14,380 nt of DNA. It comes from an uncultured Colwellia sp. GTDB taxonomy: Bacteria > Pseudomonadota > Gammaproteobacteria > Enterobacterales > Alteromonadaceae. Below, in pieces: positions 1,601 through 12,247 of the stretch. Each line of letters opens with the position of its first letter. Position 1 is the stretch's first letter. The notes below the pieces were generated by a model. It was not told the DNA's origin and did not search any database. It saw only the letters and a program-made list of their open reading frames with translations. Position numbers and translations under genes: made by a program. The stretch is from NCBI GenBank assembly GCA_913020705.1, contig CAJWBY010000125.1, positions 1-14,380 on the forward strand, written 5' to 3'.

Positions 1601-1813
1601 TTATAAGTAACTGTCCTAGTTAATTTCAATCGGTATCTCTTCACTAGACTCCTTGTCATATATTTATCACATTAACCCTGCCATTAATCTAATCATATAT
1701 ATTGGTGTCTTCCCTCTCCTTCTTCACTATGTGACTAAAGATATTATAAATTTTATAATAATCTTACACCGCTAGAAGTATGCAAGAATGCCTTAGTAAA
1801 AATTGAGGTGTAT

Positions 1814-2086
1814 ATGAAAAAGCATATGATTAAAAAGGATGATAAAGAGAAAATCTTCTTCACCCATTTAGCACTTGAGTTGGTAGAAGACTCTTTAGAT
1901 TCGTTAAAGCGCGATAATATTCATTTACTCACTGCTTACTTCGAATATTTACAACAACTGTGTGAATACCTCGCTATTACTTTTGATGCCCCCAAATTCA
2001 TTGGAATTAATAGCGAGGCTTTCTCCGTGTTACAACATCTCCACAAGCGTTTACTCATCTTGACCAAAAATTGCAACACAGAATAA
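1814..2086 (+). CDS. Small hypothetical protein, mostly helical
   Basis: Not recognised. The product is about 90 residues, with a very basic start (MKKHMIKKDDKEK) followed by long, probably helical, leucine-rich stretches and no membrane segment or signal peptide. I chose ATG 1814 because GAGG at 1805-1808 lies five bases upstream; a GTG at 1808 in the same frame would overlap that site. It precedes the winged-helix/EAL operon by about 130 bases. The intervening DNA holds an inverted repeat CAACAG/CTGTTG (2105-2110 with 2144-2149), so it may be a separate transcript. A small regulatory or adaptor protein for the neighbouring signalling genes is a guess from position alone. Confidence 0.6.
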   Translation: MKKHMIKKDDKEKIFFTHLALELVEDSLDSLKRDNIHLLTAYFEYLQQLCEYLAITFDAPKFIGINSEAFSVLQHLHKRLLILTKNCNTE

Positions 2087-2213
2087 TTACTGGGGGCAGT
2101 AATACAACAGAACAAGAAAACTCCAGGATATAAGAGAGTTGTGCTGTTGAGATCAAGGATGATCTAATTCAATTTAAATTAATTTACTCAGTGAAAAAGT
2201 GCAGTAACAGTTT

Positions 2214-2633
2214 ATGGAAATTATAGGTATGGATTTACAAAGAGCTAACGAAAAAACGAAAAAATGCAAAACTTATTGCAGTCAGTGCGAAGTCAAAGGG
2301 TCTTTGGTATTTAGCGGCAATATATCATTATGTAGTATTACCCAGTCTATCATCTTTGACGATAAAAGAATAAAACTTTCAAATAGAGCATTGAGAGTAC
2401 TTTGTGCCCTTTTACAATGTAAAGGCTCCTCTGTCAGCTTTAATTATTTACATGAATATGGTTGGCCTGACAGTTTAGTGGTGAGGAATAACCTCACCGT
2501 TACAATATCAGAGATAAGAACAACCCTTAGACATACTAATATAAAAATACAGAATATCAGAGGTTTTGGTTATGCTCTAACCTCATCAAATGATGAAATA
2601 GAGCTAATTAAGGATACAGAGTGTTTAGCTTAA
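2214..2633 (+). CDS. Winged-helix DNA-binding protein with N-terminal CX3CX2C motif
   Basis: A 139-residue protein. The C-terminal part (about 55-125) reads as an OmpR/PhoB-type winged helix (Trans_reg_C). It has a helix around LSNRALRVLCALLQ, a YGWPDSLVVRNNLTVTISEI recognition-helix region, and a wing ending IRGFGYAL. There is no receiver domain. The short N-terminal part carries Cys18, Cys22 and Cys25 in CX3CX2C spacing, which could bind a metal or an iron-sulphur cluster. The protein encoded at 3665-4066 has the same architecture and cysteine spacing, so the two are paralogues. The EAL gene starts inside this gene. The first ATG (2214) has no clear ribosome-binding site, and ATG 2229 is an alternative start. 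Transcription-factor role is inferred from the fold; the sensing role of the cysteines is hypothetical. Confidence 0.75.
   Translation: MEIIGMDLQRANEKTKKCKTYCSQCEVKGSLVFSGNISLCSITQSIIFDDKRIKLSNRALRVLCALLQCKGSSVSFNYLHEYGWPDSLVVRNNLTVTISEIRTTLRHTNIKIQNIRGFGYALTSSNDEIELIKDTECLA
2610..2623 (+). promoter_or_regulatory. Internal ribosome-binding site for the EAL gene
   Basis: AAGGA at 2610-2614 lies six bases before a GTG start (2621-2623), all inside the end of the winged-helix gene. It supports the GTG start and translational coupling through a 13-base overlap. Confidence 0.6.
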
Positions 2634-3334
2634 ATAATATTGATTTCACCAGTGTAATCTGGGGGGAAGTGGTTATTTCACCTCGCATAGAGAAGATTAT
2701 CACTCCACCTTACGCCTGTGAAAACATAGAGGTTTTATGCTCCGTGGCTAATCAAGACTCAAGCATCGCTGCCTACAGCTTTTTTCAACATTTAACAGAG
2801 AGTGAACATGTGCAGTTGTTTAAATTGATTTTAACCGCCATATTAGCAGAGCCCTCTATAAAAAATTATACCGTTAGCCTAAACACGCCTATACAAGTTA
2901 TACGTAGGCTTGGTGAACTCCTTCCATTGTTGTTGAGTCACAATGAGCAAAAGATAGCTTTTGAGTTATTAGAAAGCGATCTCCAAGAATTAGGCGTTTA
3001 CGAATACGGGATACTTGACGAAATAAACAAGATTTCAAACATCAGCTTATGGTTAGATGATTTTGGCAATAATCAGTCAAATTTCGACATAGTCCTCTCA
3101 AAAAAAGTGAAGTTCAGTGCAATCAAAGTTGCGAAAGAACTCTTTTGGGGGCTTTTAGTCACAGACATAAACTTCCTAAAAAGTTTATTAACTTACTTAA
3201 AGCAAGAGCACCTCCTTATAGTTGAAGGGGTAGAAACGAAAAAACAGGTAGAGTTTATATCGAATATTAAAGGTGTAAAAATTCAAGGGTTTTATTTTAA
3301 TCCACAACTGGAAACAGGTATTGGAGTCAAATAA
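2621..3334 (+). CDS. EAL-domain c-di-GMP phosphodiesterase
   Basis: A 237-residue stand-alone EAL domain, the family that hydrolyses cyclic di-GMP to pGpG. No sensory, GGDEF or membrane segment precedes it. The signature triplet reads EVL (37-39). Other active-site positions appear intact: Asn88 in SLNTP, Glu115 in FELLE, Asp146-Asp147 in LDDFG, Lys169 in AIKV, Glu202 in VEGVET and Gln222 in IQGF. The domain is divergent between motifs and the LDDFGxGYSS loop is altered to LDDFGNNQSN, so activity is plausible but unproven. The GTG start lies in the upstream winged-helix gene, and the stop overlaps the next start (TAATG), so three genes form one tightly coupled operon. Its partner regulator probably controls, or is controlled by, local c-di-GMP. 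It could also have become a c-di-GMP receptor. Confidence 0.85.
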   Translation: MFSLNNIDFTSVIWGEVVISPRIEKIITPPYACENIEVLCSVANQDSSIAAYSFFQHLTESEHVQLFKLILTAILAEPSIKNYTVSLNTPIQVIRRLGELLPLLLSHNEQKIAFELLESDLQELGVYEYGILDEINKISNISLWLDDFGNNQSNFDIVLSKKVKFSAIKVAKELFWGLLVTDINFLKSLLTYLKQEHLLIVEGVETKKQVEFISNIKGVKIQGFYFNPQLETGIGVK

Positions 3335-3600
3335 TGGATAAACTCACTCATGCTCAAATAATTTCTGAATTTGAAATAGCAGCACAATACATATCTAGTG
3401 AAGTAGTTCCTATCGATATTAATCTATTGAAAAATAAAGCAATAATGTTTACAAAAAAAGATGAGTACTTCCTCGATGTATGCATGGGATTAATGCAGAT
3501 GTTAACCGAAGAGGTAAAACTAAAAAGTATTAGTCAACAGAAAGAAATTAATACACTTACAGAAGAAGAAAAATACTATTTAAGCTCTATTTATGAATAA
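3334..3600 (+). CDS. Small hypothetical protein, last gene of the EAL operon
   Basis: Not recognised. The product is 88 residues, acidic to neutral, probably all-helical, with no signal peptide, membrane segment or cysteine cluster. Its ATG overlaps the EAL stop codon by one base (TAATG), which strongly suggests translational coupling and a related function, such as a partner or adaptor of the EAL or winged-helix protein. The ORF ends exactly at the shared terminator stem. Coding status is supported by operon position and absence of a competing frame rather than by homology. Confidence 0.6.
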   Translation: MDKLTHAQIISEFEIAAQYISSEVVPIDINLLKNKAIMFTKKDEYFLDVCMGLMQMLTEEVKLKSISQQKEINTLTEEEKYYLSSIYE

Positions 3601-3643
3601 AGCTGAAAATAAGCTCCTAAGTGTAGGATGCTATTTTCAGCTT
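3600..3643. terminator. Bidirectional terminator between converging operons
   Basis: A perfect 12-bp inverted repeat, AAGCTGAAAATA (3600-3611) and TATTTTCAGCTT (3632-3643), starts at the last base of the upstream stop codon. It ends 21 bases before the stop of the opposing gene. AT-rich flanks on both sides fit use from either direction. Confidence 0.75.
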
Positions 3644-3664
3644 CATTAAAGTACTGCAATTATT

Positions 3665-4066
3665 CTATAACTTTAAGCAATAACCTTCTTTTCGGTGGTT
3701 TTCAATATCAATTAACGATCCTCGTAACAAAATTCGTAAATCATAAATAGCAACATTTAAGTTATTTCTTACAATAGTAGATTCTGGCCAAACATATTGA
3801 ATTAAATAATCTTTTGGTAATACTGTGTTCCTGTGACGCGTTAAGGCGCAAATCAACCTAAACCCTTGAGAACTTACTTTGCGGTGTTCGCCATGAATAA
3901 TAAAAGTACCAAGGTTCTCTCCTTTATCAATATTTGCACTTGCAAGTTGTTCATATGGAAACAAAGGACAATCCCGACATCTGTTATAGCAAGGTGTTAA
4001 TTTTTCTTCATCAGGGGCTACTAACGTATAAGTGCTATTATTTTGCAAAATACTTAGGTTATTCAT
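3665..4066 (-). CDS. Winged-helix DNA-binding protein with N-terminal CX3CX2C motif (paralogue)
   Basis: About 133 residues from the ATG at 4066, which is preceded by AAGGGG at a six-base distance and overlaps the HD-GYP stop by eight bases. A longer frame opening at 4090 lacks such a site. Cys26, Cys30 and Cys33 form CX3CX2C (PCYNRCRDCPLF). The C-terminal winged helix includes GFRLICAL, YVWPESTIVRNNLNVAIYDL and a wing ending KEGYCLKL. It matches the plus-strand protein at 2214-2633 block by block (WPxS, xVRNNL, GYxL), so they are diverged duplicates. Translational coupling to a c-di-GMP-type enzyme mirrors the other arm. Likely a transcription regulator; redox, iron or metal sensing by the cysteines is an inference. 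Confidence 0.75.
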   Translation of the reverse strand: MNNLSILQNNSTYTLVAPDEEKLTPCYNRCRDCPLFPYEQLASANIDKGENLGTFIIHGEHRKVSSQGFRLICALTRHRNTVLPKDYLIQYVWPESTIVRNNLNVAIYDLRILLRGSLIDIENHRKEGYCLKL

Positions 4067-5123
4067 AAACCACCCCTTCAAAAACATCACTATCTAGTAG
4101 GAAGTTACAATCGCAATTTTCAGAAGAGGCTAAGGTAACTTGATATTTCCCCCCCCCCACTTTAGCTAAAATTTTAACGAAATCTCCATCAAATGTTTTT
4201 ACTTGAGTGCCGACAGGAAACTCCCTTATCACTTCAATAAACCTAGCGACAAGACGAGGATCTAACATAGTTCCTGAAACTCTGGCTAACTCTGAAATAG
4301 CAGAATAAGAACATAAGGCACTCTTATAATTTCTGTTACGAGTTATTGCTTCATATGTGCAAACCAAGGTAAGCATCCTTGAATAGAGGTTTATATCTCG
4401 ACCGGCTAACCCAGCCGGGTAACCTGTACCATTAAAATGCTCATGATGTGATTCAATAATTCGACTCACGAGACTAGGGAATTCTTTATTTTCTTCAATA
4501 AGCTTTACGCCTATTTGAGTGTGGCACAGAACGTGATCTCTTTCTGTTACAGTCAATTTTTCTGGTTTATCGAACGTAATAGGAAGCTTAACCATTCCTA
4601 CATCATGCAGTAAGGCAGCACAGCCAAGACTCAATAGTTTGTCTTTTTTTATGCCTAAATATTTACACATTGTTAAATAGAGTATCAGTACTCTTAATGA
4701 TTTATGCGCAATGCAGGGGGATTTGCTTTGGATAGTATTTAAATACTCATAGGTTTTAGAGTCGGCTAAAACCTGAACAGTTAAATAATTAACAACCTCT
4801 TTTACCTTTTTAGAGCTCAAATAAGAGCTCGTGGTCAAGTCATTAAAGATAACATTTAATAGCTTAAAGGACTTTGATAAAGCGGCTTTTCCTTCTTTTT
4901 CTTTATTTTGAGTCGACACACTTTCATTGTCAATATAACTCAATGACGACCCTGACTTTACAAAGACATATTCACATGTGTTTCGTAGTTGAACTAAATG
5001 CTTTTCAGACTTAATTACGAAGGTATGTTTTAAGAAGGGGGTATCAAGCCATTTTCTATCTAATTTAACGACTTTCATACCAATCTTTAGTTGGTTTACT
5101 GCTAATTTATTCATAGGTATCAT
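4059..5123 (-). CDS. HD-GYP domain protein (c-di-GMP phosphodiesterase family)
   Basis: A 354-residue cytoplasmic protein with an N-terminal DUF3391-like segment (about 5-65, opening LAVNQLKIGMKVVKL) and an HD-GYP domain (about 135-300). Visible metal and signature residues are His173-Asp174 in LLHDVGMVKLP, His201, His226-His227 and the GTGYP form of the GYP motif (232-236). In the final ligand motif, normally DxYDA, the sequence is CTYEA with Cys255, so one iron-ligand aspartate seems replaced. The enzyme may be impaired or changed in metal preference, or act as a binding protein. A run of ten G encodes the glycines near residue 323-325 and is a potential slippage site. The stop overlaps the start of the downstream winged-helix gene. 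An imperfect palindrome lies just upstream of the start; no strong ribosome-binding site is visible. Confidence 0.85.
   Translation of the reverse strand: MIPMNKLAVNQLKIGMKVVKLDRKWLDTPFLKHTFVIKSEKHLVQLRNTCEYVFVKSGSSLSYIDNESVSTQNKEKEGKAALSKSFKLLNVIFNDLTTSSYLSSKKVKEVVNYLTVQVLADSKTYEYLNTIQSKSPCIAHKSLRVLILYLTMCKYLGIKKDKLLSLGCAALLHDVGMVKLPITFDKPEKLTVTERDHVLCHTQIGVKLIEENKEFPSLVSRIIESHHEHFNGTGYPAGLAGRDINLYSRMLTLVCTYEAITRNRNYKSALCSYSAISELARVSGTMLDPRLVARFIEVIREFPVGTQVKTFDGDFVKILAKVGGGKYQVTLASSENCDCNFLLDSDVFEGVVYE
4149..4158 (-). repeat. Homopolymer of ten G in the HD-GYP coding strand
   Basis: Ten C on the plus strand encode V-GGG-K in the HD-GYP protein. Reading one base fewer or one more brings early stops within about 6 or 13 codons, removing the last 25-30 residues and uncoupling the downstream start. 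Such tracts are classical phase-variation sites and also sites of sequencing error. Confidence 0.8.
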
Positions 5124-5164: not shown

Positions 5165-5440
5165 AAATTTACAATTTAAAAATTAGATACCGTCCCATTG
5201 GCAATATATGAAATCCATTTCTATCTGTAATATATACTGGTCATACCAAAGAAGTCAATATTCACATAGCTCAAAATGAAATTTGATAAAACAAAATAAT
5301 CTTAGCAAAAGCAATTATAAAAAAATTTACACTAAATAACATGAACTTATGCCTTGGCATTTCGTCCCCCTTAATTTTCTAATGGGGCTTGATACGACGG
5401 ATATTGAAGGGTTAGGAATGGCTATACAGAATTTAGGCAC

Positions 5441-6744: not shown

Positions 6745-8520
6745 TTACACTTCAAACGCATCAATAATCGGAATTAAATTCTTTATATCCGTAACTTTGT
6801 GCGTGTAGTTGCTAGTAATACCAAAGCTACTAATTTCATGGCCAACAACTTGTTGAAGCAAGTTAATATTAACATTGGGCTCACTCATGCTCTTAGTTAT
6901 AAAGGTATGGCGCAGGCTGTGAAAAGAACGGATATGATCAAACTCATTGGTAGGAGGAATACTCAGACTTGCCATATGGCGCGGCATCCAACCCGTTACA
7001 ACCTCAACATTAGACAGCTCATAAAAAACCCTGTCCTCGCAACTTTTAACATACTCAATAAACACAGCATCTATTAATGCATTATGTAATGGTATGAGCC
7101 GCTTAGAGTGAGCTGTTTTAAGTTTTTGAGTAGCATGTTCATCGGTTATGATCAAATAATGGCGGCGTGACTCTTTATCAAGCTTCACATCACTTTTCCT
7201 AAGCTGAACTAACTCGCCACGTCTAGCACCAGTATAAATGCCAAGGTAAATGACCCACTTTTTCCATTTAGTGCGTTCTTGTTTAGCGGAATTTAACAAT
7301 GCCGATAGTTCTTTATCATTGAATATTCCGCGTACTCTAGCTTTAAAGTTACGTCTAATTGAACAGGGTGAAATGGTAATGTAGGCAATAGTGTCACGTT
7401 TAGCATAGGAGAAAACACCCATAACCCACTTGTGGTATTGCTGAACTGATTTGGGTGATTGAAGATCTTCGTCGGGAGCATCAACTTCAAGCCGTTGCTC
7501 CCATGTCATTTTATTGTATGGGCCAATATTCATTCTAGGTAACTCAAAGCACCTATCTATAAATCGACCAATATCTTGTTTGGTATAGCTATCAATAGGT
7601 TTATCTTCAACTAATGCCAGCCAAACTATGTGCATGCGCTCGTAACTCTGCTGCATTTTCAGGGACAGTTTATCTTTATTAATTTTATGCGCTAGGAATT
7701 CGGCATAGACTTGAGAAAATAAGGGTTTGGTAGATTTAGGTTGTAGAGGCTCAATAGTACTAAGCTGCTGTGCAACGGGTGATAAACTAATCAATGACTT
7801 CAGCTCTCGCTCACCAATGCTATCACCCGTAAATATTGAACTAAGTAATTCATCTCTCAAATCATTAGACGCTTTTAATTTGCTAAGTAATACTCGATAG
7901 GACACTGAGTCTTGATCAATATTAAACCCCGAAGCTTTCAGTAGTTGGCTTGCTTGGTCTTTTAACCCTTCATCGTTATCAACGTTATCACTATCAACAA
8001 AAGACATGGCTTTAATAACGGTTGAAATAGACTCTAAGAAAGGCCACTTCTGCTATTGGGTTAAACCTACTACCACTTCACTAAAGCGTACTAATCGTTG
8101 TTCATTATTCTGTGCTTGCGCGATATAAAGATATTGCTCTTTAAAGACCTCATTCAAGCCTAATAATGAACCGGTTGATAGGGCATTAACGGTATGCCCC
8201 TTATCACTATAACCTTGTTCAAGCTTAGCTATCATCGGGTCAATATCGGATATTTCTAACTGCTTCAACATAGCATCCTTGATTTTGGTAAACTGCAGAC
8301 AAGTGGAGTCAGTGTCTAATGTTCTTGAGCGAATAACAAGTTGTTTTAACGAAGAAATTAACGGTAGAAGACGCTCTAAAACCAATATTGCAACACTTAG
8401 TTTATGCGTTCGTAAGCAGAGCCGTATTTCCCTCGCGCCAAGGTGTTTCGGTACTTTAACTCTCACATAAAAAGTACTTTTCCTAAGGTATAAATACTTA
8501 AACCCTGTAACTGCCTGCAA
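6745..8520 (-). pseudogene. Tyrosine recombinase/integrase interrupted by an amber codon
   Basis: One gene of 591 codons is split by an in-frame TAG at 8055-8053. The N-terminal part (8520-8056, 155 residues, TTG start) opens with FKYLYLRKSTFYVRVKVP, typical of the DUF6538 N-terminus of large integrases. After the stop, 15 codons run in the same frame into a 420-residue C-terminal part. That part has a core-binding domain (about 95-205) and a catalytic domain with Arg262 in TGARRGEL, a lysine near 297-303, HSLRH with His363 and Arg366, His390 in VGHE, and Tyr401 in TSNYTHK. All catalytic residues are present, so only the amber codon disables it. It could be a recent nonsense mutation, readthrough, a base-calling error, or two separate proteins. 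Position beside rnpB and repeated boxes suggests an integrated element. Confidence 0.8.
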
Positions 8521-8765: not shown

Positions 8766-8816
8766 ATTTTAGAAAACTGCTTGCTTCCATTAACGAAAAC
8801 AAGCAGTTACTAAAAT
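8766..8816 (-). terminator. rnpB terminator
   Basis: AACTGCTTG (8775-8783) pairs with CAAGCAGTT (8800-8808). An outer stem, ATTTTAG (8766-8772) with CTAAAAT (8810-8816), extends the hairpin across a small internal loop. It sits right after the RNase P RNA 3' end on the same strand. Confidence 0.75.
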
Positions 8817-8817
8817 T

Positions 8818-9245
8818 TGTGAGCTAACACTATAAGCCGGGTTTTGTATCTCTTCCGAAGAAGAGTGACAATCATTCGTCTAGGCCTTAAATCGCTCTAA
8901 GGCTCAAGCAACCTACCCGGTTTCCACGCGAACCACGCTTATACTATTTAAACTTACGTTCAAATAGTCATGAAACCCTATTTGGTCTTGCTCCGGGTGG
9001 AGTTTACCCTGCAATTACTGTTACCAGTAATCCGGTGCGCTCTTACCGCACCCTTTCAGCCTTACCTGTTCTTCCGAAGAAGTCATCGGCGGTCTTCTCT
9101 CTGCTGCACTTGTCGTCGGCTCACGCCGCCCAGGCGTTACCTGGCACCCTGCTCATTGGAGCCCGGACTTTCCTCCCCCTTATCCGTATATCTTCAGTTT
9201 GCACATCTGATACAACGATAAAGCAGCGATTGTCTGGTCAACTCG
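8818..9245 (-). ncRNA. rnpB: RNase P RNA (bacterial type A)
   Basis: The catalytic RNA of ribonuclease P, which removes 5' leaders from precursor tRNAs together with the protein RnpA. The conserved blocks are all present on the minus strand: GAGGAAAGTCCGGGCTCC (9176-9158 region), the GGTAAGAGCGCACCG region with GGTGAAAGGGT-like sequence (9066-9033), GTAAACTCCACCCGGAGCAA, and the 3' block ACAAAACCCGGCTTAT (8847-8832). The terminal helix P1 forms between GAGTTGAC (9244 onward) and GTTAGCTC (ending 8821). The length of about 425 bases is normal for gammaproteobacteria. One insertion-like hairpin near 8945-8970 extends a peripheral helix. The ends are set from P1 and the promoter. Reading frames on either strand here are not genes. 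Confidence 0.95.
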
Positions 9246-9251
9246 CCGCGC

Positions 9252-9280
9252 ATTTTACCTGAATTATAATAAAACACCAA
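9252..9280 (-). promoter_or_regulatory. rnpB promoter
   Basis: On the minus strand, TTGGTG (9280-9275) and TAAAAT (9257-9252) are separated by 17 bases. The -10 box ends six or seven bases before the RNase P RNA 5' end inferred from helix P1. Confidence 0.65.
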
Positions 9281-9368
9281 CGGTTATTCATTTGACTACA
9301 AAAAATGATTGCGAGCACTAATGTGAGTAACCTTTATGGCTATAATTAGCTCTTGTAAAAGATCCAGT

Positions 9369-10916
9369 TTAATCTCTTTCGCTAAAACATAACGCGCTAA
9401 AGGCGACATGCACACCATTTGTCCAACCAAAACCTTCTTGTACATCATACTCTCCGCCTTCGGCTTTATGGCTTTGCTGACAAACATTATATTTTTCCAT
9501 TATTTTTCCTGTTTGCTGAAAATACGACTCTACTGTATTAAGCCAACGGTTCTTAATGGTTTGTGCTAAACATTGTTTTTCATATTTAATTAAGCCTTGA
9601 ACAGCAAACCAATGCAATGGCGCCCAACCATTTGGTGAATCCCATTGTTGACCTGTTTCAATAGCAGTCGTGATTAAACCTCCTCGCTGTAAAAATTCAT
9701 TTTCAATTACCTTACTAATTTGGTCAGCTTGTTTCGCATCAGCTAACGCAACAAATAAAGGTAATACACTCGCTAAAGATTTGACTGAACTTTTCGATTT
9801 TTTATCAAGATCATAGTCCATATAAAAACCATCATGTTCAGACCACATATAACGCTGTATTGCTGATTTTCTTGTTGTCGCATACTTTACATAAACAATA
9901 CTCGATGCTTCATTACCAAGCATTTCATGATACTGAGCGAGTAACTTTTCTTGTTTGTACAATAGGCAATTTAAGTCAACAGGTAAAATACGAGTGGTAC
10001 GAATTGACGCTAATGAATGATCTTCACTTAACCAACGAGCGCTAAAATCCCAACCAGATTCACAAGCAGCACGTATATTGCGATAAAAAGATTCAGCATC
10101 ATCAGGTTTTGATTCGTTAAACAACTCAATATCTTCACGATATGACTCCGGGCGTGGAGAAGCATTATCATCCCAATATCGATTCAACAAACTTCCGTCT
10201 GGCATTTTAACAATTCGTCCAGATTCAAGTACCTCATCTGAACCCAGCTCTTTTCCCTTCATCCAGAACTTATATTCGGCTTCAACTGCGATAATATGCG
10301 TTGTTATAAATTGTTGTTTATCTGACTGAAAAGGTAAAAGTAAGTCAACTAACAAGCCTAAAATAGGTGGCTGTGATCGAGATAAGTAATAACTTCTATT
10401 ACCATTAGGAATACAGCCATAGCTTGATTGTAGATCTAAAAAATTACTCAACATAGATTCAGCTAAAGCAATATTTCCTGACTCAACTAAACCTAATGCA
10501 GTGAAATAACTGTCCCAGTAATAAATCTCTCTAAACCTTCCACCGGGAACTATATAAGGTTTTTTTAAAGGTAATAAAGAATCGTTTCTATTGGTATCAG
10601 CATTCTTCTTTAACACTGTCCATAATGAGTCAATATGTTGTTCAATACTGGTTTTTACGGTTTCACTGCGTACTTCTTCATATTTAATAATATCAAAATA
10701 ACCTTCAATAAAATTTTTCAGGTTAAACGTCGTGATATCTATTTTTTCGTTATGGTAACTTTGTAAGATTTCCACATAAGAAGCTTTTGGCATAGCGTCA
10801 GCAAAAGTTTTACTGTCGCTAAACAAGCCACTCATTTGCACATCTTTGAATAATTCACTTTCAAAAAAATGTAAACTTTCTTTAACTTGTTGATTTAATA
10901 ATTCGGTATTCATCAT
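9369..10916 (-). CDS. treF: Cytoplasmic alpha,alpha-trehalase (GH37)
   Basis: A 515-residue glycoside hydrolase family 37 enzyme, hydrolysing trehalose to two glucose molecules by an inverting mechanism. Both trehalase signatures are clear: PGGRFREIYYWDSY at 124-137 and QQWDSPNGWAP at 423-433. By alignment with E. coli trehalase, the catalytic acid is Asp290 in ESGWDFSARW and the base Glu474 in MEKYNV. A GGEY...GFGWTNGV segment completes the C-terminus. There is no signal peptide and the length is close to TreF (549), so it should act in the cytoplasm. The ATG is preceded by AAGG at seven bases, and the gene follows the MFS permease by 23 bases, indicating one transcript. It is probably induced through the LacI-type repressor encoded upstream. 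Confidence 0.93.
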   Translation of the reverse strand: MMNTELLNQQVKESLHFFESELFKDVQMSGLFSDSKTFADAMPKASYVEILQSYHNEKIDITTFNLKNFIEGYFDIIKYEEVRSETVKTSIEQHIDSLWTVLKKNADTNRNDSLLPLKKPYIVPGGRFREIYYWDSYFTALGLVESGNIALAESMLSNFLDLQSSYGCIPNGNRSYYLSRSQPPILGLLVDLLLPFQSDKQQFITTHIIAVEAEYKFWMKGKELGSDEVLESGRIVKMPDGSLLNRYWDDNASPRPESYREDIELFNESKPDDAESFYRNIRAACESGWDFSARWLSEDHSLASIRTTRILPVDLNCLLYKQEKLLAQYHEMLGNEASSIVYVKYATTRKSAIQRYMWSEHDGFYMDYDLDKKSKSSVKSLASVLPLFVALADAKQADQISKVIENEFLQRGGLITTAIETGQQWDSPNGWAPLHWFAVQGLIKYEKQCLAQTIKNRWLNTVESYFQQTGKIMEKYNVCQQSHKAEGGEYDVQEGFGWTNGVHVAFSALCFSERD

Positions 10917-12199: not shown

Positions 12200-12228
12200 A
12201 GTCTATAACCAAAAGCGCACAAATGCAA
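12200..12228 (-). promoter_or_regulatory. Promoter of the permease-trehalase operon
   Basis: On the minus strand, TTGCAT (12228-12223) and TAGACT (12205-12200) are 17 bases apart. The -35 box lies inside the operator, so bound repressor would block RNA polymerase. The -10 match is moderate. Confidence 0.45.
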
Positions 12229-12247
12229 ACGTTTGCATTTGTGCGCT
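12214..12247. promoter_or_regulatory. 34-bp perfect palindrome with LacI-type operator core
   Basis: The two 17-base arms are perfectly complementary. The left arm, AGCGCACAAATGCAAAC, holds the half-site of the TGCAAACGTTTGCA core found twice upstream of the repressor gene. In minus-strand RNA the arms form a stable hairpin followed by TTTTGGTT, so the element could also end repressor transcription before the permease gene. Confidence 0.8.

Follow-up and report, generated by a model that had tools for sequence, protein, structure and literature searches.

We observed that a 14,380-nucleotide stretch of DNA from an uncultured Colwellia sp. (contig CAJWBY010000125.1 of assembly GCA_913020705.1; this whole stretch is hereafter called the window) carries a six-gene cassette, in which two paralogous winged-helix (WH) proteins are each encoded in overlap with a cyclic di-GMP (c-di-GMP) domain protein, an EAL protein in one case and an HD-GYP protein in the other. 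The reading that we favour, and to which we give an even chance, is that of a conserved regulatory cassette in which two transcription factors are each gated by the overlapping partner and control attachment. The features from which this reading starts were observed directly: the layout, its recurrence, the conserved cysteines, the active-site residues, the conservation of the leaders and the pilus-like neighbours of relatives.

The six-gene cassette and its recurrence

The cassette is made up of two operons that converge at about 3600-3665 in the window. The first, on the forward strand, begins with the small-protein gene orf92 (1814-2086) and continues with WH1 (2214-2633), EAL (2621-3334) and orf88 (3334-3600), the last directly after EAL and encoding a small protein predicted to be all-helical. 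The second, on the reverse strand, consists of HD-GYP (4059-5123) and the WH1 paralogue WH2 (3665-4066, from an ATG at 4066 to 3665). An earlier note on this DNA had described four of these genes, and we found its gene coordinates, strands and overlaps (13 bases for WH1/EAL and 8 bases for WH2/HD-GYP) to be correct; orf92 and orf88 come on top of them. The two modules are not mirror-related as it had proposed, since WH1 lies upstream of EAL in its transcript but WH2 lies downstream of HD-GYP. The likelier starts are ATG 2229 for WH1 and ATG 5114 for HD-GYP, because these are conserved across the aligned loci (in five of six, the exception being L004, and in six of six, respectively).

A single profile scan of genome contigs, with a 31-row WH alignment as the query, returned six loci (L001-L006). 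Five of these had the identical six genes in the identical convergent order: two Colwellia metagenome-assembled genomes (L001, L002), a gammaproteobacterial metagenome-assembled genome (L003), Colwellia sp. 12G3 (L004) and Thalassotalea loyana (L006). The sixth (L005) had a single WH1-type gene without the rest of the cassette. The orf92 and orf88 of L004 resemble their window counterparts weakly, and the DNA flanking the cassette is unlike between the Colwellia and Thalassotalea loci. As the six-gene order recurs in five of the six loci, the layout is not a matter of chance.

We further judged 29 WH genes in their context (9 WH1-type, 6 WH2-type and 14 distant). An intact c-di-GMP partner was present beside 19 of them (13 EAL and 6 HD-GYP), two had a damaged EAL gene and eight had none; the damaged and no-partner calls were made by eye. 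All six WH2-type genes (those of the six-gene loci, the window included) adjoin HD-GYP. The WH1-type genes with EAL were those of the window, L001, L002, L003, L004, L006 and L043, and those without it were L058 (which is L005, taken from its genome) and L044, where the contig end cuts the locus. Among the distant genes, six had an intact EAL (L045, L046, L049a, L050, L052, L055), two a damaged one (L047, L057) and six no EAL directly behind (L048, L049b, L051, L053, L054, L056). In L048, an EAL-orf88 pair lies about 1 kb upstream of the WH gene, with an usher remnant containing stops in between. The adjacency to EAL or HD-GYP genes that the earlier note had asked to be tabulated is thus recurrent, and homologues without c-di-GMP neighbours are in the minority. 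We also observed that in the genome holding L046 and L047 (G286), transposase-like open reading frames (ORFs, recognised by eye) adjoin the WH genes, one of them near the broken EAL gene.

The distribution of the family is patchy. A WH match at E ≤ 1e-15 was found in 13 of 395 genomes in the family of the Thalassotalea genome (G005). Genus-level searches gave matches in 3 of 17 genomes (genus of G001), 1 of 3 (genus of G005) and 4 of 13 (genus of G092), and an order-level search gave 6 of 394 genomes at E ≤ 1e-12, four of these, G438 among them, being weak. No close relatives were found on plasmids (28 plasmid records, every one below 60% identity), a phage search gave no match, and a search of viral contigs gave no confirmed relative. 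When TACCAATGGGANGGTA was scanned in viral contigs, 46 stretches were returned, which we judged to be at chance level for a short pattern in a large collection.

Winged-helix proteins, their partners and their neighbours

WH1 and WH2 matched the Pfam family Trans_reg_C with 39.4 and 39.6 bits (cut-off 26.2). The best PDB fold matches of WH1 were SaeR, RpaA and ToxR, indicating a winged helix-turn-helix (wHTH) fold. Neither protein has a receiver domain (they are 139 and 133 residues long, and Trans_reg_C was the sole Pfam family above the cut-off). The paralogy proposed earlier holds, with 38 of 111 residues identical between the two proteins (E 8e-20) and a C-X3-C-X2-C motif in both. In a tree of the WH proteins, the WH1-type, WH2-type and distant rows formed three groups, with L045 as a long and unsure branch.

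When we aligned 47 rows covering all three groups (P0030 and P0036 being left out), the three cysteines of the motif (C13, C17, C20) and a fourth in the first wHTH helix (C59) were invariant in all 47. Only eleven columns of this alignment are invariant, and four of them are these cysteines. The CX3CX2C motif was present in 49 of 51 WH relatives from the protein database, and more distant relatives (a Vibrio tubiashii plasmid protein and a protein of genome G438) had CX4CX2C with the same fourth cysteine. Four conserved cysteines are what one would expect of a metal site with four ligands or of a redox switch.

The EAL protein matched the Pfam EAL domain (45.6 bits, cut-off 31.3). Its best curated model was NCBIfam PRK11596, which we take to be PdeH/YhjH, at 47 bits, below the 190-bit cut-off. 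The catalytic residue set of EAL phosphodiesterases is E, N, E, E, D, D, K, E and Q, and all nine of the residues checked are retained in the window protein (E37, N88, E115, E118, D146, D147, K169, E202, Q222). Eleven of 13 aligned EAL proteins keep all nine, L003 and L050 having one substitution each. The window protein deviates at the R of EALxR and in the DFGTG loop. It is thus probably, but not certainly, an active c-di-GMP phosphodiesterase.

The WH-EAL pairing is maintained among proteins that are just 26-30% identical, and in 13 of 14 cases an intact EAL gene is followed by an orf88-like ORF. Those at the distant loci are only 13-24% identical and were recognised mainly from place and length. 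No family or fold match was obtained for orf88 in Pfam, PDB sequences or PDB folds, and these searches gave no support to a relationship with YmgB, which we had considered. The other small gene, orf92, precedes WH1 in the window and in all five six-gene relatives (30-94% identical to the window copy), and had no Pfam family at E ≤ 1.

The HD-GYP protein consists of DUF3391 and HD-GYP domains (HD_5 match of 93.5 bits, cut-off 27.2), and its active site is remodelled. A search gave 264 relatives, and we aligned the best 77: a clade of 18 that are at least 45% identical, two fragments included, followed by 59 others at 25-42% identity, mostly over part of the length. In all 18 clade members, the positions equivalent to H189, K225, D305 and D308 of PmGH are K, M, C and E, while HD, H250, HH and GYP are retained. 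The H, K and D of the first three positions are kept in 41 of the next 59, and one protein (P0072) keeps none of them. In PmGH, alanine at H189 or K225 is reported to abolish activity, alanine at D308 to remove or nearly remove it, and D305A to lower it (PMC4159591). Since residues that matter in this mutagenesis are lost, the HD-GYP protein is probably no working phosphodiesterase, a non-hydrolytic role being likelier than an active one.

This bears on the dual circuit drawn in the earlier note, in which two phosphodiesterases accompany two cysteine-based factors. The recurrent adjacency to c-di-GMP genes and the cysteine pattern, now a family feature, support it. A pair of phosphodiesterases is not supported, as all 18 members of the HD-GYP clade carry K, M, C and E at the four sites.

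Three sister HD-GYP genes (in G237, G044 and G138) have by eye the same K, M and C and no WH2 neighbour. By eye, then, there may be a wider family of remodelled HD-GYP proteins beyond the WH2-paired ones. As the sister genes share K/M/C without WH2, they suggest that the remodelled HD-GYP arose first and was coupled to WH2 later. At their loci (L115, L116 and L117), the K/M/C sites occur with a CCAATGGGATGGT leader, and two of the genes lie beside a GGDEF-type gene.

We observed that five WH loci (L043, L050, L051, L052, L055) adjoin a pilus-like operon. The operon of L043 encodes a PapD_N chaperone (28.1 bits, cut-off 23), small exported proteins and a putative outer-membrane protein of about 890 residues; the likeness in the other four was recognised by eye and by a search for the large gene. 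All five near-full-length usher-like genes found in 13 genomes, which were chosen for having a WH gene, lay within 4 kb of a WH gene. Besides these, the search returned an usher remnant interrupted by stops and a weak match in G182. The name usher is presumed from gene content. Because relatives of the WH-EAL pair adjoin pilus-like genes, the cassette suggests a surface-attachment switch. G182 (L048, L049, L050, L051) gives a picture of local expansion and decay, with five WH genes, two usher-like genes of near-full length and one remnant of such a gene containing stops.

Leader elements, promoters and repeat arrays

A leader RNA element lies between orf92 and WH1 (2085-2167, forward strand), with hairpins at 2086-2103, 2105-2149 and 2150-2165, the third carrying AGGA in its loop (2156-2159). 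Across seven sequences, 88.4% of the pair cells were standard against 84.2% in shuffles (1 of 500 shuffles being as high). Two-sided changes were seen in 8 cells against 3.6 (1 of 500), the covariation score was 0.188 against 0.120 (1 of 500), and the pairing was destroyed when the partner strand was slid. Better folding than in shuffles was seen for the leaders of four loci, namely the window, L001, L002 and L004, with z from -2.9 to -4.3. We consider the WH1 leader structure likely, as judged from a few related sequences. A model of it (R1) matched 5 of 13 genomes, once each, at its own source WH1 loci. It had no match in G287 or in the genomes of distant WH genes, so the leader is not family-wide. 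Across 196 family genomes, R1 gave three matches, one of them (G197) at E 0.009.

The third hairpin carries CA[N]GGA[U/C]GA in all seven WH1-type leaders. The consensus for CsrA obtained by SELEX (systematic evolution of ligands by exponential enrichment) is reported to be RUACARGGAUGU with GGA in a loop (PMC7652899), and the leader motif resembles it.

The HD-GYP gene has a leader element of its own (5188-5221, reverse strand), with a possible hairpin GAAA[UGGA]UUUC at 5210-5221 and CCAATGGGACGGT, which lies in a possible short hairpin, at 5189-5201. We found CCAATGGGANGGT before all nine HD-GYP genes of this type (six of six orthologues and three of three sister genes), and in the three sister genes without WH2 it sits about 125 bases upstream of the start. 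It occurred in 22 of 117 loci examined; where these could be placed, they were loci (many of them overlapping) with such an HD-GYP gene. As a short hairpin, CCAATGGGANGGT would have GGGA in the loop and four pairs, with 100% of the cells standard and weak covariation; a DNA operator instead of an RNA hairpin is equally possible. Both GGA and GGGA are present in six of six HD-GYP leaders, and with the sister genes included GGA is lost in one of nine (L117). The GGA in possible hairpin loops of these conserved leaders suggests that both operons are controlled post-transcriptionally, CsrA being the first candidate. A csrA gene is present in all six genomes tested. In alignments of the upstream DNA, which is otherwise diverged, the leader elements are conspicuous; an Rfam search up to E 10 gave no match to them (window, L001, L003, L004, L006).

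Between the converging operons lies an inverted repeat (3596-3647, 24-nucleotide arms, 83% complementary) that is a likely terminator. It folds far better than shuffles (z -5.3), and the earlier suggestion that the operons converge on a shared terminator is in line with this for the window. The same stem was found in only two of five relatives, L001 (z -3.8) and L002 (z -5.0); L004 has a different stem (z -3.0), and L003 and L006 have no room for one. A terminator scan of the window called none, against 1.8 expected by chance.

A promoter scan of the window gave 16 matches against 15.4 by chance, i.e. chance frequency, and the two sites taken from it are to be read with this in mind. For orf92, this is GTGACT-17-TATAAT at 1731-1759. 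The AT-rich block ATTATAAATTTTATAATAAT (1743-1762, forward strand) contains the predicted -10 TATAAT of this promoter, and 18 of its 20 columns are identical in six of six loci. The predicted promoter of the HD-GYP-WH2 operon is TTGACT-18-TATATT (5229-5258, reverse strand), its TTGA being conserved in six of six.

By eye, the ATTATAAATTTTATAATAAT block resembles two units of a 9-bp repeat of the relatives. AT-rich 9-bp tandem arrays (with a unit such as TTTTTATAA, in 2.8 to 7.9 copies) lie upstream of distant WH genes, often, as judged by eye, just ahead of a TTG(A)-like box. Eight of the 14 distant WH genes have such a 9-bp array, and L043 has an 8-bp array. The array scan counted 12 of 21 WH genes, among them the window, L001 and L058, whose arrays are weak (scores 34-35) and built of other units. 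One further array with a score of at least 50 was present in 20 loci (242,007 bases), before the L048 EAL gene. An exact three-unit pattern gave 7 arrays in 13 genomes, and the gene behind each was a WH or EAL member of this family; the reversed pattern gave 8 matches, a control that says little as the arrays can match the pattern backwards too. Direct-repeat operators are one possible role of the arrays; as several units contain TATAAT, reiterated -10 boxes are another.

Proposed mechanism, alternatives and known systems

The WH proteins would bind DNA through the winged helix of the OmpR/PhoB/ToxR type, and their four cysteines may carry a redox centre or a metal such as Fe-S or Zn. The EAL protein would most likely hydrolyse c-di-GMP, and the HD-GYP protein, most likely no longer hydrolytic, would serve as a c-di-GMP- or ligand-binding regulator. 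Co-translation would bring partner and factor together, with the ligand state of the partner gating the factor (a trigger-enzyme logic). The output would be surface attachment, by inheritance from pilus-linked relatives, and both operons would be under post-transcriptional control through their leaders, with CsrA as a candidate. As a complete package, we regard the following more detailed version as rather unlikely: a class of dual c-di-GMP switches whose four-cysteine WH factors read metal or redox state, with an active EAL and an HD-GYP pseudo-enzyme (catalytic Asp to Cys) as gates, leaders tied to CsrA, and descent from a pilus-operon regulator with variable-copy 9-bp arrays.

Several observations weigh against the gated cassette. 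Eight of the 29 WH genes lack a directly adjacent partner, which means that the factor can occur on its own. The two relatives outside the cysteine pattern are P0030 (96 residues, without the N-terminus) and P0036 (113 residues, with the first cysteine missing and the last two kept). The AlphaFold model of the WH protein (mean predicted local distance difference test score of 72, and 37-58 for the first 30 residues) is too poor to place the four cysteines. Two measures of the WH1 leader were unremarkable, namely pairs with double changes (5 against 3.1 in shuffles, 48 of 500) and pair types (13 against 11.2, 102 of 500). The WH1 leaders of L003 and L006 folded no better than shuffles, nor did any of the four HD-GYP leaders tested. 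The usher-like gene had no match in the four genomes with the full cassette (G001, G002, G003, G005), and it gave no hit to the usher family, which makes that assignment weak. The cofactor, the protein contact and the DNA targets are parts of the mechanism that we infer. RpfG, which lacks H189, is a warning that the HD-GYP protein may be active despite its losses.

In L001, two copies of a parvulin gene (ppiC-like, by eye) flank the cassette, one on either side (L001:5129-5386 and 9137-9394, 97% over 258 bp). The window has a copy only on the left (1340-1600), and L002 only on the right and in pieces (9141-9405). A resolvase-type recombinase lies to the left of the window cassette (374-991), and a tyrosine integrase (DUF3258) and a separate DUF6538 ORF lie to its right (6745-8520); these two ORFs may belong to a single integrase that a stop interrupts. 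The parvulin copies and the nearby integrase-like genes of the window and L001 mark an apparent insertion hot spot. Further along the window, a class A RNase P RNA (302.8 bits, 8816-9245, reverse strand) lies between the integrase region and genes resembling, by eye, a glycosidase, an MFS transporter and a LacI-type regulator. A perfect 34-base palindrome (12214-12247), probably a terminator, separates the MFS-like and LacI-like genes.

We weighed three alternatives to the gated cassette. The WH proteins could be ordinary activators, with EAL and HD-GYP as mere co-transcribed targets that lower c-di-GMP, acting through the general pool and without contact. A catalytically complete EAL and its PdeH-like family match, which fits a global phosphodiesterase, would agree with such a local feedback, as would MrkJ, reported as a phosphodiesterase tied to type 3 fimbriae (PMC9487511). 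However, an HD-GYP protein remodelled in 18 of 18 would probably not lower c-di-GMP, and the WH2/HD-GYP pairing in six of six and a WH/EAL pairing kept at 26-30% identity point to cognate partners. We consider this explanation doubtful. The cassette might instead encode two phosphodiesterases, perhaps with different substrates, if HD-GYP were still a hydrolase with altered metal chemistry (a binuclear site with Cys in place of Asp305). HD, H250, HH and GYP are kept in all 18, PmGH D305A retains some activity, and RpfG, with two of eight metal ligands missing (H189 being Phe), is described as thought to be binuclear and not dead (PMC4159591). Against this, H189, K225, D305 and D308 are all changed at once, and alanine at K225 or H189 alone abolished activity in PmGH (PMC4159591). 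An active HD-GYP is improbable in our view.

The last alternative, a passenger cassette of mobile DNA whose order reflects insertion history, finds support in the tyrosine integrase and resolvase near the window cassette, the integrase-like ORF seen by eye in L001, the 258-bp parvulin duplication flanking the L001 cassette, and the patchy distribution (any WH match at E ≤ 1e-15 in 13 of 395 family genomes). Around the Thalassotalea copy, however, inspection of the ORFs by eye showed no integrase, and the layout, overlaps and leaders have persisted while protein identity fell to about 50%, for which selection for function is needed. We therefore regard mere cargo as very unlikely.

The earlier note knew of no described system with this layout, and none was found in our literature search, which covered titles and abstract openings, with most subscription journals outside its coverage. 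The coupling of a transcription factor to a c-di-GMP-domain protein is a known theme. PdeR-MlrA and PdeL are precedents in which a c-di-GMP protein gates a transcription factor, and CosR is a redox-responsive regulator of the OmpR family. RitR, another redox-responsive member of that family, shares the wHTH fold (the fold list of WH1 holds RitR entries and an entry titled as a family of redox sensors); the WH proteins differ in having no receiver domain and a four-cysteine set that includes CX3CX2C. If a cofactor is bound, the winged helix with its four cysteines would represent a sensory version of the OmpR/ToxR fold, and we know of no such version elsewhere.

FimK of Klebsiella is reported to unite helix-turn-helix (HTH) DNA-binding and EAL domains within the type 1 fimbrial operon, beside fimbrial genes (PMC9487511). 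It is a single fused HTH-EAL protein, whereas here the genes are separate and overlapping. Neither a CX3CX2C winged helix nor an HD-GYP partner nor orf88/orf92 is known to us from FimK. In the BluR-BluF-ycgZ-ymgAB unit of E. coli, regulator, EAL and small-protein genes also stand together, and the EAL protein BluF is reported to contact and directly antagonise BluR (PMC3509220). That system has a MerR-type regulator, a BLUF light sensor and a degenerate EAL; here the regulator is a cysteine-bearing winged helix of the OmpR type and the EAL keeps the full catalytic set, only Trans_reg_C and EAL being above the cut-off. PdeH (YhjH) is likewise a single-domain EAL protein, from which the window EAL (47 bits against the 190 cut-off of PRK11596) differs in being coupled to a winged-helix gene. 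PmGH, RpfG and PA4781 share the HD, HH and GYP signatures, and the DUF3391 N-terminus is found in other family members, but the window clade has K, M, C and E at H189, K225, D305 and D308.

Beyond what the earlier note described, the new elements are the fourth cysteine, the remodelled HD-GYP, the leader elements, the 9-bp arrays and the presence of WH genes beside a pilus-like operon. The cassette is a natural and compact case of transcription factors and c-di-GMP-domain proteins co-inherited as cognate pairs, twice per cassette. As one partner looks active and the other looks converted to a regulator, the trigger-enzyme idea can be compared within one locus.

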